Positions 59,746-64,000 of a stretch of 64,000 nt of DNA are shown piece by piece. How positions within the stretch are numbered: the first letter of the stretch is position 1; each line of letters starts with the position of its first letter. The stretch comes from Roseicella sp. DB1501. Its GTDB lineage: Bacteria; Pseudomonadota; Alphaproteobacteria; Acetobacterales; Acetobacteraceae. The DNA lies in the NCBI RefSeq assembly GCF_013112485.1, contig NZ_JABFHG010000007.1:1-64000 (forward strand), in the 5' to 3' direction. The notes beneath the pieces were generated by a model that worked only from the letters and a program-made list of their open reading frames with translations, searched no databases and was not told the DNA's origin. The position numbers and the translations under genes were made by a program.

Positions 59746-62700
59746 GCGGCGAGAGCGGCGGCCCCTCCCGGGACGGCGTGCCGGGGGACGATGCGGCGGC
59801 GCCCGAGATGGAGACCGGCGCGGATACCGCCGAGCGGGCGGCGCTGCGCGCGACCCTTGCCCGGCTGCGCATCGCCGGCTTCAAGAGCTTCGCCGAGCCC
59901 ACCACGGTCGAGGTGCTGCCGGGGCTGACCGGCATCGTCGGGCCGAATGGCTGCGGCAAGTCGAACGTGGTCGAGGCGCTGCGCTGGGCGATGGGCGAGA
60001 CCTCGGCCCGCTCGATGCGCGGCGGCGAGATGGAGGACGTCATCTTCGCCGGCACCGCGACCCGGCCGGGCCGCAACCTCGCCGAGGTGACGCTGTACCT
60101 GGAGGAGGCGACCGGCCTCGCCCCGCCGCCGAATGCCGAGGCCGAGGATCTCGAGATCATCCGCCGCATCGCCCGCGGCGAGGGCAGCTCCTTCCGGGTG
60201 AACGGCCGCGAGGTCCGGGCGCGCGATGTCCAGACCATGTTCGCCGATATCGGCTCCGGCGCCCGCGCCTCGGCCATGGTCAGCCAGGGCAAGGTCGCCG
60301 CCATGATCGGCGCCAAGCCGGAGGAACGCCGGCAGGTGCTGGAGGAGGCGGCCGGCATCAGCGGGCTGCGCGCCCGCCGGCACGAGGCGGAGCTGAAGCT
60401 GCGCCAGGCCGAGGCCAACCTCACCCGCGCCGAGGATCTGCTCGGCCAGCTCGAGGTGCAGCGCAACGGGCTGCAGCGCCAGGCGCGGCAGGCCAACCGC
60501 TACCGCAACCTCTCCGGCCTGGTGCGCCAGGCCGAGGCGGAATGGCTGGCGCTGCTGACCGCCCGCGCCGAGGCGGCGCTGGCGCATGCCCAGGCCGGCT
60601 TCGAGACCGCCGCCGCGACCACCCGCCGCGCCGAGGCCGAGGCCGAGGCGGCGGCGATCCGCAGCTTCGAGGCGGAGAAGGCGCTGCCGGCGCCGCGCGA
60701 GGCCGAGGCGCTGGCGCGCACCGTGCTGGAGCGGCGCCGGGTCGAGAGCGAGGGGCTGGAGGCGGAGGAGCGCCGCGCCCGCGCCGCGCTGGAGGCGGCC
60801 GCGGCGCGGCTCGCCCAGATCGAGCGCGACCTGGCGCATGCCCGGGGCGTCGAGGCGGATGCCGCCTCCGCCGAGGCGCGGCTCGCGGCCGAGCGGGCGT
60901 CGCTCGACGAAGCGGCCCGCACCCTGCCCAACCGGCTCGCCGCGGCGGAAGCGGCCTTGCAGGAGGCCGCCGAGGCCGCCCGCGCCGCCGAGCGCAGCGC
61001 CAACCTCGCCACCGAGGAGGCGGCGGCGCTGGCCGCTCGGGTGAATGCCGCCGCCGCCGCCCTGGACACGGCCGGGCAGCGCGCCCGGCGCCTCGGCGGC
61101 CAGCGCGAGGCGATCGCCGCCGAGCATGCCGCGGCGCTGGCCGCGCGGGTGGCCCCGGAGCGCCTCGCCGCCGCCCAGGCCGCGGTCACGGGCGCCGAGC
61201 AGGGCTTCGCCGCGGCGCGCGCGGCGCTGGCCGAGGCCGAGGCGGCGCGGGCCGCGGCGCAGGAGGCGCATGCCGCCGCCCGGCGCGAGGCGGGCGTCGC
61301 CGAGGCTGAGGCCGGCCGGGCCCATGCCGCCCTCGCCGAGGCCGAGCAGCGGGCCAGTCGCATCGCGGCGCAGCACGCCGCCATCGCCCGCGACCATGCG
61401 GCGGCCGAGGCGGCGCTGGTCCCCGGCAGCCGGTTGCAGGCGGCCGAGGCGGCCGCCGTGGCGGCCGAGGCCGAGCTCGAGACCCGCCGCGCCGCGCTGG
61501 AAGCGGCCGAGGCCGCCCGCGCCGCGGCGCAGGAGGCGCATGCCGCCGCCCGCCGCCGCATCGCCGATGCCGAGGCGCTGCGCGAGCGCGCCGCCGCCGA
61601 GGCCGCCACCACGGCGCAGCGCGCCGCCCAGCTGCGCGAGCAGCATGCCCGCCTCGCCGAGCAACGCGAGGCCGCGCGGGCCGCCGGCCTCCCGGCCGGG
61701 CGGGTCGCGGCGGCGCAGCAGGAGGCGCAGGCGGCCGAGGCGGCGCTTGCCGCCGCCCTGCAGGCGGTGACCGAGGCCGAGGCCGGCCGCGCCGCCGCCG
61801 CCGAGGCGCATGGCGCGGCCCGCGCCGCCGCCGCCGAGGCGGAAGGGGCCGAGGCGCGGGCGCTGGCCGAGGCGCAGGCGCTCGGCGAGACGCTGGCCGC
61901 CAATGCCGCCGCCGGCAGCACCGCGCCGCCGGTGCTCGATGCCATCCGCGTGCCGCCCGGGCTGGAAGCGGCGCTCGGCGCCGCGCTGGGCGAGGCGCTC
62001 GACAGCCCGCTCGATCCGGACGCCGCCCGGCACTGGCGCGCCCTCCCCCCCTTCGCCGCGCCGCCCGCCCTGCCGGCGGCGGTGCAGCCCCTCGCCGCGA
62101 TGGTCGAGGCGCCGCCGGCCCTGGCGCGGGCCCTGTCGCAGATCGGCCTGCTGCCGGAGGGTGCCGAGGGGGCGGCGCTGCAATCCGCCCTCGCCCCCGG
62201 CCAGGCGCTGGTCGCGCGCGACGGCGCGGTCTGGCGCTGGGACGGGCATACCGCCCGGGCCGATGCGCCGAATCCCGGCGCGACGCGCCTCGCCCTGCGC
62301 AACCGCCTGCACGCCGCCGAGGCCCGGCTGGCGGGCAGCCGCGCCGCCACCGAGGCCGCCCGCGCCGCCCGGCAGCGGGCCGAGCGGGAGGAGGCCGAGG
62401 CCATCGCCGCCGAGGCCGCGCAGCGGGAGACGCGCCGCGCCGCCGAAGCGCGCCTCGCCGCCGCGCGCGCCGAGGCGAGCCGGCTGGCCGCCGCCGCCGC
62501 CGAGGCGGAGAGCCGGCTCTCGGCGCTGGAGCCGCAGCTCGCCCGGCTGGCCGGGGAGCATGCCGAGGCCGAGGCCGCCGCCGAGGTGGCCGCCGCCGCG
62601 CTGCAAGCCCTGCCCGCCCCCGAGGCGGCGATCGCCGAATACGACGCGGCGGCCCGCGCCGAGACCGCCGCCGCCGCCGCCGAGGCCGAGGCGCGCGACG

Positions 62701-64000
62701 CTCGGGCCGAGGCGGAGATGGGGTTGCAGCGCGCCCGCAGCGCCGCCGCCGCCCTCGCCGCCAGCGCCGCCCAGGCGGAAAGCCGGCGCGGCGCCCTGGC
62801 GCCGCAGCTCGAGCGGCTCGGCACCGAGGCTGCCGAGGCCGAGGCGGCGTTCCAGGCGGCCCGCGAGGCCCTCGCCGGCCTGCCCGAGCTCGCCGCGCTG
62901 CGTGCCGCCGCCGCCGCGACCGAGGCCGAGGATGCCGCGGCCGTCGCCGCCGAGGCCGCGGCGCGCGAGGCCCGCACCCGCGCCGAGGCGGCGCTGGAGA
63001 CGGCGCGCGAGGCGGCGGCGCGGCTCGCGGCCGAGGCCGCCCAGGCGGAAAGCCGCGTCGAGGCGCTGGCGCCGCAGCTCGCCCGCATCGCCGCCGAGGC
63101 CGAGGAGGCCGAGGCGGCGCGGGCCGAGGCGGCGGCGAGCCAGGCCGCGCTGCCGGCGCTGGAGGCGATCCGCGCCGGGGTGGAGACGGCCCGCGGCGCG
63201 CTCTCCGCCGCCCGGGCCGGCGAGGTCGGCGCGCTCGAGGCGGTGGCCGGGCTGCGGGCGGAGCGCGACCGGATCGCCGCCCGCCGCACCGCCGCCGAGG
63301 CCGAGCAGGCGGGCTGGACCACCCGGCGCGAGGATGCCGCCGCCCGGCGCGCGGCGCTGGAGGCGCGCGCCGCCGAGGCGCGGGCCGAGCATGACGGCCT
63401 CGCCGCGCTACCCGAGGCCGCCGCCGCCCGGCATCGGCAGGCCGGAACGGCGCTGGCCGAGGTGGAGGCGGCGCATGTCGCCGCCGCGGCGGCGCTGACG
63501 GCGGCCGAGACCGAGCGGCGCGAGGCGGCCGAGGCGCGGCGCGCGGCGGATGCCGCCTTCGCCGCGGCGCGCGAGGCGCAGCTCCGCGCCGAGGGCGCCG
63601 CCGAGCAGGCTGCCACCGCCGCCGAGGCGGTGCGCGGGCGGGTGGTGGAGCGGCTCGGCGAGGATGCCGCCCTGCCGGAGCCCGGCGAGCTCTCCGACGC
63701 CGCCGAGGACCGGGCGCGCCGCAAGCTGGAGCGCCTGGCGAAGGAGCGGGAGGAGATGGGCCCGGTCAATCTCCGCGCCGATGTCGAGATGGGCGAGATC
63801 GAGGGGCGGATCGCCGAGATCACCCGCGAGCGCGAGGAGATCGGCGCTGCCATCGCCAAGCTGCGCGGCTCGATCGGGCATATCAACCGTGAGGGCCGCG
63901 AGCGGCTGCGGACCATCTTCGACCGGGTGAACCGGGAGTTCATCGACCTCTTCACCCGGCTCTTCGGCGGCGGACGGGCGCATCTCGCCCTGGTCGGCTC
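59742..64000 (+). CDS. smc: Chromosome segregation ATPase SMC, elongated arms, runs off the window
   Basis: An open frame from the GTG to the window end, at least 1419 codons. The N-terminal ATPase half has RLRIAGFKSFAEPTTVEVLPG and Walker A GIVGPNGCGKSNVVEALRWAMGE (about 66-88), and the Q-loop is in MVSQGKVAAMIGAKPEERR. The Ala/Glu-rich N arm runs to about 725, a degenerate hinge (PPVLDAIRVPPGLEAALGAALGEALD) to about 850, then the C arm. REGRERLRTIFDRVNREFIDLFTRLFGGGRAHL marks the approach to the C-terminal ATPase half, outside the window. Usual SMC length is near 1150-1200, so this one is some 300 longer. The extra length is tandem 90-residue repeats in both arms. Confidence 0.95.
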   Translation, partial: MSGESGGPSRDGVPGDDAAAPEMETGADTAERAALRATLARLRIAGFKSFAEPTTVEVLPGLTGIVGPNGCGKSNVVEALRWAMGETSARSMRGGEMEDVIFAGTATRPGRNLAEVTLYLEEATGLAPPPNAEAEDLEIIRRIARGEGSSFRVNGREVRARDVQTMFADIGSGARASAMVSQGKVAAMIGAKPEERRQVLEEAAGISGLRARRHEAELKLRQAEANLTRAEDLLGQLEVQRNGLQRQARQANRYRNLSGLVRQAEAEWLALLTARAEAALAHAQAGFETAAATTRRAEAEAEAAAIRSFEAEKALPAPREAEALARTVLERRRVESEGLEAEERRARAALEAAAARLAQIERDLAHARGVEADAASAEARLAAERASLDEAARTLPNRLAAAEAALQEAAEAARAAERSANLATEEAAALAARVNAAAAALDTAGQRARRLGGQREAIAAEHAAALAARVAPERLAAAQAAVTGAEQGFAAARAALAEAEAARAAAQEAHAAARREAGVAEAEAGRAHAALAEAEQRASRIAAQHAAIARDHAAAEAALVPGSRLQAAEAAAVAAEAELETRRAALEAAEAARAAAQEAHAAARRRIADAEALRERAAAEAATTAQRAAQLREQHARLAEQREAARAAGLPAGRVAAAQQEAQAAEAALAAALQAVTEAEAGRAAAAEAHGAARAAAAEAEGAEARALAEAQALGETLAANAAAGSTAPPVLDAIRVPPGLEAALGAALGEALDSPLDPDAARHWRALPPFAAPPALPAAVQPLAAMVEAPPALARALSQIGLLPEGAEGAALQSALAPGQALVARDGAVWRWDGHTARADAPNPGATRLALRNRLHAAEARLAGSRAATEAARAARQRAEREEAEAIAAEAAQRETRRAAEARLAAARAEASRLAAAAAEAESRLSALEPQLARLAGEHAEAEAAAEVAAAALQALPAPEAAIAEYDAAARAETAAAAAEAEARDARAEAEMGLQRARSAAAALAASAAQAESRRGALAPQLERLGTEAAEAEAAFQAAREALAGLPELAALRAAAAATEAEDAAAVAAEAAAREARTRAEAALETAREAAARLAAEAAQAESRVEALAPQLARIAAEAEEAEAARAEAAASQAALPALEAIRAGVETARGALSAARAGEVGALEAVAGLRAERDRIAARRTAAEAEQAGWTTRREDAAARRAALEARAAEARAEHDGLAALPEAAAARHRQAGTALAEVEAAHVAAAAALTAAETERREAAEARRAADAAFAAAREAQLRAEGAAEQAATAAEAVRGRVVERLGEDAALPEPGELSDAAEDRARRKLERLAKEREEMGPVNLRADVEMGEIEGRIAEITREREEIGAAIAKLRGSIGHINREGRERLRTIFDRVNREFIDLFTRLFGGGRAHLALVG

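Follow-up and report, generated by a model that had tools for sequence, protein, structure and literature searches.

How does the arm of an SMC protein, an antiparallel coiled coil formed within one chain, become longer when both of its strands must change together? The question is raised by the smc gene at the end of a 64,000-nucleotide stretch from Roseicella sp. DB1501 (bases 1 to 64000 of contig NZ_JABFHG010000007.1, C45 in our set, from a genome of 5.99 Mb), which we call the window. The product of this gene carries 90-residue repeats on both sides of its hinge. Comparison with related sequences makes matched modular growth of both SMC arms, in this protein and in its relatives, a well-supported reading. 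To the explanation as a whole, in which a hinge-proximal segment would have been duplicated in tandem with the two strands kept matched, we assign a probability of roughly 0.78.

The reading frame opens with GTG at 59742 and ends at 64412, 412 bases past the window. It encodes 1556 amino acids, in agreement with the original prediction, made from the DNA letters of the window, that the SMC would exceed 1,500 residues. The protein scores 770.6 bits against NCBIfam TIGR02168 (SMC_prok_B), for which the curated equivalog cut-off is 567.35, and 190 bits against Pfam SMC_N over residues 39 to 1529. Both parts of the split ABC head are in frame, with GPNGCGKS at the N end and the LSGGE signature motif near the C end. 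No SMC_hinge match was listed for the protein in the Pfam search; a hinge profile built from relatives aligns to it, and Foldseek lists solved SMC hinges, such as 5h69_B (template modeling [TM] score 0.59 over the target, E 0.015). Elsewhere in the genome, scpA and scpB have one above-cut-off match each, adjacent on contig C6. On these family matches, the window gene is identified as the bacterial condensin ATPase SMC.

The repeats were measured by self-comparison. For the N arm (residues 301 to 715) and the C arm (851 to 1310), composition-weighted identity at each lag was compared with 200 shuffles within 45-residue blocks. Lag 90 gave z = 9.7 (N) and 12.2 (C), and lag 180 gave 4.8 and 6.5; at no lag did a shuffle exceed z = 5.3 (N) or 5.0 (C). 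The proposed 90-residue period is therefore present in both arms, above every shuffle. The landmarks from which it had been read are in frame at their predicted sites: CAT codons at 61269, 61539 and 61809 (residues 510, 600 and 690), EAESR/QAESR starts at 62502, 62772 and 63042 (residues 921, 1011 and 1101), and prolines at 396, 472, 561 and 651 on the N side and 958, 1048, 1138 and 1224 on the C side, the last of which had been placed one residue off, at 1223. A DNA repeat search also recovered the 270-base spacings. Tandem Repeats Finder reported periods of 15 to 30 bases only, because the copies of the 270-base unit are too diverged for it.

Counting blocks from the hinge, with borders at a chosen offset of 10 residues (N) and 40 residues (C), block identity defines three 90-residue units per arm, beside the hinge (Table 1). 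Units within an arm share 0.44–0.57 (N) and 0.50–0.58 (C) of their amino acids. Identity is weaker, at 0.26–0.32 (N) and 0.24–0.27 (C), for the block beyond the outermost unit, which matches N3 at 0.32 and C3 at 0.27. The regular prolines had suggested four breaks, and hence four units, on each side of the hinge. The prolines exist, but only three units do in each arm: the outer prolines, 396 and 1224, lie outside the unit at spacings of 76 and 86, not 90. Among 13 unexpanded Acetobacteraceae, the site of Pro1224 holds a proline in all 13, again outside the unit; that of Pro396 does so in a fraction of 0.31, and the model of one unexpanded protein, L087 (L numbers denote rows of our protein set), breaks there. 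By inspection the window protein has 3/3 units (N/C), and 4/3 at a lax cut-off of 0.30.

Relatives were collected by a family search with the N-terminal head, which matched at least 261 of 299 genomes. The proteins compared were chosen and are not a random sample: they are complete-looking frames spread over genera and lengths (20+20+20, 20, and 20+20 with one repeat), 10 further frames from the class, several of them picked for length, and named loci, the best 80 of 474 candidates. Among these best 80, the closest named relative comes from a Siccirubricoccus record; next come, among others, records of Neoroseomonas and Roseomonas. Sequences lacking a complete C head (e.g., L013, L049, L070 and L148), cut by contig ends (L016 and L033) or having duplicate cores were dropped before counting. 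Both rows from Siccirubricoccus sp. G192 (L013 and L070) are long frames without the signature motif or a full C head, which suggests a frame change in the assembly or the gene. In many draft genomes (e.g., G166, G138, G212, G021, G047 and G177), the match lies near a contig end and the frame is short; perhaps the repeats break short-read assemblies, leaving contigs that end inside smc.

Arm lengths, written N/C, were taken with head and hinge profiles as anchors. Unexpanded arms are 293/301 in many Alphaproteobacteria and 293/297 in Acetobacteraceae. Other states are 304/308, 315/319, 326/330, 337/341, 348/352, 359/363, 383/387, about 475/476 and 564/568. Across 163 complete, non-redundant proteins, the lengths of the two arms correlate at r = 0.994. 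The difference C minus N lies no more than 4 residues from its median in 123 of them, 8 in 149 and 14 in 160, which leaves L023 (384/477), L127 and L185 as outliers. Among Acetobacteraceae, the length classes are base, +11 to +66 in elevens, +90, +180 and +270, and 115 of 117 rows have the same class in both arms (the exceptions are L023, at +90/+180, and L159, at +44/+55). A single genus can hold three of these states (384/388, 474/478 and 564/568). In the +90 class, 17 proteins are exactly 383/387 though their arm identity drops to 0.43 (N) and 0.46 (C). Increments for 25 hand-defined lineages are exactly equal between N and C in 15 and within 2 residues in 19. The summed N–C difference is 163, whereas in 100,000 shuffles it averages 1304 and never falls below 509; these 25 include L023, L159, L210 and L217, which count against matching, and omit L127, L185 and L211. 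Together with the equal unit numbers of the window protein, the matched lengths strongly support the proposal that both arms expanded by the same unit. Relatives with unequal repeat numbers had been named in the original prediction as evidence that would refute it; by arm length, such a case for 90-residue units occurs once among the 163 proteins (L023).

The repeat itself can be followed through these relatives. Of 38 rows from the Roseomonas-like clade, 33 have lag 90 among their top four lags in both arms; none of 9 unexpanded rows does so. The five clade rows that fail are L045 (lag 90 in C only) and L048, L052, L053 and L056, all four from genus g44. In g44 the C arm has a period of 86 (z 3.4–5.0) and the arms are 377–381/383; these C arms are 86 residues longer than base, fitting that period, and the N arm shows no clear matching repeat. 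Unit similarity rises in steps, from 1/1 (L058) through 2/2 (L031, L022) and 3/3 (L009, L038) to 4/4 (L039). At an identity cut-off of 0.34, unit numbers are equal in 76 of 81 long-armed proteins, 34 of these 76 having no detectable unit in either arm. This count depends on the cut-off, being 69 at 0.30, 73 at 0.36, 69 at 0.38 and 63 at 0.40. The lowest cut-off, set at the maximum of unexpanded arms, was rejected for unit counting; it gave 4/3 and 3/2 because the block past the last unit is still weakly similar.

A tree built from heads and hinge only, by a quick method with one support value, fits a +90 state at the base of the 48-row Roseomonas-like clade (support 100). It also fits +180 in the window's own clade, in L025, in L035/L036 and in L038/L150/L039, with +270 in L039. 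Parsimony requires 17 changes per arm or, with more rows, 16 (N), 16 (C) and 17 for the joint state. On this tree there are several independent steps, some of which may be losses from +180. Placing changes branch by branch put the same change on both arms in just 11 of 19 changed branches. We discounted this figure because ties were broken separately for each arm, whereas the parsimony totals are tie-independent.

Arms have also lengthened by other units. In L106, a metagenome-assembled genome (MAG) of Ferrovibrio, the arms are 437/445, which is +144 on each strand relative to 293/301; both carry 18-residue repeats, and the runs differ in unit sequence between N and C. Repeats of 11 residues, near the hinge, are clear in both arms of L064, L084, L158 and L160 and are weak or confined to one arm in L063, L159, L161 and L162. 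This group consists of Acetobacteraceae rows, its named members being Rhodospirillales MAGs (L084, L085 and L089), and its lengths shift by multiples of eleven on both strands. Outside the family, L212 is +54/+55 (in the N arm, which was scored, the best lag is 11 at identity 0.38), L214 +96/+94 and L216 +33/+33; L210 and L211 are 406/452 (+113/+151) and 407/453 (+114/+152), and L209, L213, L215 and L218 are unexpanded or nearly so. L210 has an acidic, proline-rich, non-helical-looking insert of about 40 residues in the C arm near the C head, which would explain most of its N/C difference. L095, recorded as Asaia bogorensis (a MAG), is +33/+33; its SMC clusters with rows from outside the Acetobacteraceae, which puts the organism name in doubt.

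To see what a unit might look like when folded, we turn to an AlphaFold2 model of residues 437 to 1140 (10 rows; mean predicted local distance difference test [pLDDT] 84.4, predicted TM score [pTM] 0.37). In this model the N strand includes two helices of 86 residues. Counted from the hinge, the break prolines come at 76, 166 and 255 residues on the N strand and at 108, 198 and 288 on the C strand, the last offset holding a proline in 0.81 of 16 three-unit relatives. The corresponding model of unexpanded L087 (13 rows; pLDDT 85.8, pTM 0.37) has its N-strand breaks at hinge distances of about 76 and 152 and its C-strand break at about 108; near 192 (C) the helix is interrupted for a single residue. 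Proline profiles agree in part with this pattern: in the 13 unexpanded Acetobacteraceae they peak at N 73 (0.77), 149 (0.31) and 229 (0.77) and at C 108 (1.0), 194 (1.0) and 279 (0.92), and in the 16 three-unit proteins at N 75/76, 165/166, 255, 331 and 409/411 and at C 108, 198, 288, 374 and 462. Thus, within the family, a duplicated module appears to bring one N and one C break. The window model gives long helices with breaks, and units on the two strands may face each other in register, although a pTM of 0.37 limits what it can say of pairing. A further set of C-arm prolines (931, 1021 and 1111, in LxPQL) shares the period of 90; we rejected it as a set of breaks facing those of the N strand, AlphaFold2 keeping the helix through these prolines. 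Among Foldseek matches with E of 0.001 or better, 15 of 16 are SMC-family chains (cohesin, condensin, Smc5/6, Wadjet and MukB) and one is PrgA; TM scores over the query are low (0.13–0.26), as for long coiled coils.

The explanation that we prefer runs as follows. The ancestral segment would have been a hinge-proximal antiparallel coiled coil with one N-strand break and a staggered C-strand break, and its tandem duplication would have led to three units per arm. The duplications would have been separate and mostly stepwise on each strand, with selection then keeping lengths matched, because the arm folds back and a change in one strand would be kept only if the other equals it. Whether ninety is tolerated since it is close to one superhelical turn is, for us, a matter of about even odds; a near-full turn would keep the relative angle of head and hinge while the arm grows. 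Helix rise is about 0.15 nm per residue. Each unit would thus lengthen the arm by about 13 nm, or about 27 nm in the window protein, and the effect is likely to be a longer reach per ATP cycle in Smc-ScpAB. We hold it doubtful that SMC arms in general evolve by strand-coupled whole modules that leave the head–hinge angular phase unchanged, either as a 90-residue, nearly complete turn of ordinary coiled coil or as low-twist 11- and 18-mers in any number. If this phase reading were true, the resizing of Bacillus subtilis Smc would have measured phase and not length, and lineages at forbidden lengths would escape by a changed coiled-coil type.

Several observations weigh against this explanation. 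The most direct are unequal arms. In L023 the N arm is at +90 but the C arm at +180, L159 (337/351) may be a second unequal case, for 11-residue units, L217 is +11/0, the N and C increments of L210 and L211 differ by 38, and L127, an alphaproteobacterial MAG with a weak hinge match, is 319/304. In L023 (genome G127), the two N units are only 0.69 identical in DNA, yet its state is possibly an assembly error (a collapsed third copy) or else a one-arm evolutionary intermediate; the contigs of the other two genomes of its genus break off within the arm. In 2 of 9 unexpanded rows, lag 90 ranks among the four best in the C arm but not in the N arm (L062, z 4.2; L057, z 2.6). There is also a second long-armed group (L065, L068, L069, L092, L096 and L170–L192), including Gluconobacter (L092) and Gluconacetobacter (L096), which is +180-like with little or no detectable repeat and in which the C arm is often 5 to 12 residues below the family-offset prediction. 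A faint repeat is seen in L069 (z 3.0 and 3.7), and L176 shows some. Of L170–L192, 22 of 23 are at 471–478/466–476; the remaining one, L185 (516/471), was set aside as an unequal-arm case, an insert in the hinge linker accounting for it.

Other points bear on the module and on its length. In 25 unexpanded Alphaproteobacteria outside the family, prolines reach a fraction of at least 0.3 only at N 229 and at C 108 (0.60), 194, 279, 290 and 295, so the N break near offset 73 carries no proline mark there (<0.3). Hydrophobic residues in the 90-mers show a weak, mixed periodicity, with Fourier peaks at harmonics of 90 and no clean heptad; a clean heptad phase within the 90-mers was accordingly rejected, and the phase idea remains something that we infer. 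A strict rule of 91 residues cannot hold in view of natural lineages at +33, +44 and +55. Finally, later +90 steps could be recombination between existing units, and therefore only the first duplication tests why the unit is ninety.

This last point leads to the strongest rival explanation, which we consider somewhat short of an even bet: the first matched duplication happened to be 90 residues, later steps copied it by unequal recombination, and matched length suffices, phase being irrelevant. An exact 32-base DNA repeat with copies 270 apart in the N arm of the window gene speaks for such copying, and the 11- and 18-residue units of other lineages, which reach +22, +33, +44, +55, +66 and +144, speak for indifference to phase. 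By our own rough calibration, +33 to +55 falls in the gap of 373–407 within which B. subtilis constructs are reported to be non-functional (PMC5344682). However, alphaproteobacterial arms outside the stepped lineages vary very little: 17 proteins are exactly 293/301 and most others differ from this by about 10 residues or less, and therefore length is not free. In addition, the hydrophobic periodicity peaks at 3.48 in unexpanded arms, at 3.64–3.66 in 11-mers and at 3.60–3.62 in 18-mers, not at 3.5, so the short units may add little left-handed twist and escape a phase rule.

A second alternative, proposed in the original prediction, is that the breaks are joints that let a long arm fold or bend. 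The AlphaFold2 model does interrupt the helix for 4 to 9 residues every 90 on each strand. Yet the N and C breaks alternate, staggered by about 32 residues in hinge distance, so an unbroken helix on one strand would span each break on the other, and one break per strand near the hinge is there already in the L087 model; as joints they would thus not be new. Spanned in this way, and present in an unexpanded arm, the breaks do not look like joints, and we think this alternative improbable.

It is also conceivable that the whole middle of smc (N units, hinge and C units) was imported by recombination from a longer-armed relative, lengthening both arms at once, as the recurrence of matched states in separate branches would allow. 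L039 points the other way. Its units N2 and N3 are mutually closest (0.79), as are C1 and C2 (0.67), and its units N1, N4, C3 and C4 find their best matches in units of the sister species L038 and L150. The two pairs lie at different positions, and therefore an N unit and a C unit were duplicated separately, each by 90, which for L039 makes local duplication in steps likelier than import. If real, the state of L023 involves one arm and tells against import as well, which we regard as less probable even than joints. That the periodicity is a by-product of low-complexity, GC-rich and alanine-rich sequence has practically no chance of being right: bases 60001–64000 are 81.6 per cent GC and alanine makes up 432 of 1115 residues from 166 to 1280, but shuffles preserving local composition never attain the signal, which by this test rules out chance or low complexity as its source, and the period is exactly 90 in both arms, with breaks predicted structurally at intervals of 90.

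The coordinates of these features are collected in Table 1. Upstream, the window holds a DsbA-like gene that overlaps the start of smc by 4 bases, a DciA frame and, on the minus strand, an HhH-GPD/NUDIX (MutY-like) frame.

Table 1. Position in the window of the smc gene, its repeat units and predicted helix breaks, and the adjoining gene.
Feature	Position	Strand	Evidence or remark
DsbA-like thioredoxin gene	59014..59745	+	Pfam Thioredoxin_4 115.6 bits, DSBA 39.9 bits
smc gene	59742..63998 in window (5' 1419 codons), stop at 64412	+	TIGR02168, Pfam SMC_N
Walker A, N-terminal head, GPNGCGKS, residues 67-74	59940..59963	+	sequence, family models
N-arm unit N3, residues 447-536, farthest from hinge	61080..61349	+	amino acid identity 0.57 to N2, 0.44 to N1
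Pro472, predicted N-arm helix break 468-471	61155..61157	+	AlphaFold2
N-arm unit N2, residues 537-626	61350..61619	+	identity 0.47 to N1, 0.57 to N3
Pro561, predicted N-arm helix break 558-561	61422..61424	+	AlphaFold2
N-arm unit N1, residues 627-716, adjoins hinge	61620..61889	+	block identity
Pro651, predicted N-arm helix break 648-651	61692..61694	+	AlphaFold2
Hinge, residues 727-850	61920..62291	+	profile from relatives; Foldseek SMC/hinge matches
C-arm unit C1, residues 891-980, adjoins hinge	62412..62681	+	identity 0.50 to C2, 0.58 to C3
Pro958, predicted C-arm helix break 955-963	62613..62615	+	AlphaFold2
C-arm unit C2, residues 981-1070	62682..62951	+	identity 0.54 to C3
Pro1048, predicted C-arm helix break 1046-1049	62883..62885	+	AlphaFold2
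C-arm unit C3, residues 1071-1160	62952..63221	+	block identity
Pro1138, third of C series	63153..63155	+	break merely suggested, model ends at 1140

These arms can be brought to two open issues: how force passes along an SMC arm from its heads to its hinge, and what constrains the length of the arm. According to Burmann et al. 2017 (PMC5344682), prokaryotic arm lengths have modes at 238, 341 and 515 amino acids, and possibly at 163 and 423; both arms were averaged and sequences with one strand below 75 per cent of the other were excluded. Resized B. subtilis Smc is given there a viability period of 91 amino acids and a superhelical period of about 99, with extended constructs functional at 330–373 and 407–435. 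The unit of 90 is close to this period of 91, and the modes at 341, 423 and 515 lie near base, +90 and +180; on a rough calibration of our own, with 341 as base, +90 would be about 431 and +180 about 521. Two differences stand out. Arms of +33 to +55 seem to have lengths at which constructs failed, and sequence repeats or a duplicated unit are not described in the available text of that study. Among titles and abstract openings in the open-licence literature, we found no report of tandem repeats in SMC arms.

A study of the Smc rod (Mol Cell 2017; PMC5526789) describes seven contacts spread along 330 residues, in which the N and C helices take turns. By our own arithmetic, this is about 94 residues per pair of N and C contacts, and the breaks seen here likewise alternate between N and C once per 90. 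Contacts and breaks are distinct features, however, and any link between them would be inferential; the joint of that study is near the heads, whereas the repeats here adjoin the hinge. Elongated B. subtilis variants fail in chromosome-arm alignment according to PMC8357415, as did a chimera of wild-type length, and therefore length alone is not shown there to be the cause. PMC5344682 mentions coiled coils of the tropomyosin type with long periods and says that no repeated partner is known for Smc. As in those proteins, units of roughly equal length are repeated along the rod. In SMC, however, one chain supplies both strands of an antiparallel coil, and therefore two different kinds of unit have to expand at the same time.

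Compared with the Smc of the bacterial Smc-ScpAB complex (TIGR02168), the window protein has the same heads and antiparallel arms and a probable hinge between the arms, with scpA and scpB in the same genome; it differs in arms about 180 residues longer per strand than those of unexpanded relatives and in the visible 90-residue repeats. We therefore see it as an ordered, unusual variant of a well-known machine. A role of superhelical phase is an appealing but unproven account of it, and arms found in nature at +33 to +55 offer the best test of that account now at hand. With its relatives it forms a natural series (base, +11, +22, +33, +44, +55, +66, +90, +180 and +270), with strands matched and three kinds of inserted repeat. 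This is a ready set for testing length against superhelical phase and contact number, and for relating the loop-extrusion step to arm length. Matched arms also show two distant parts of a single gene evolving in concert.

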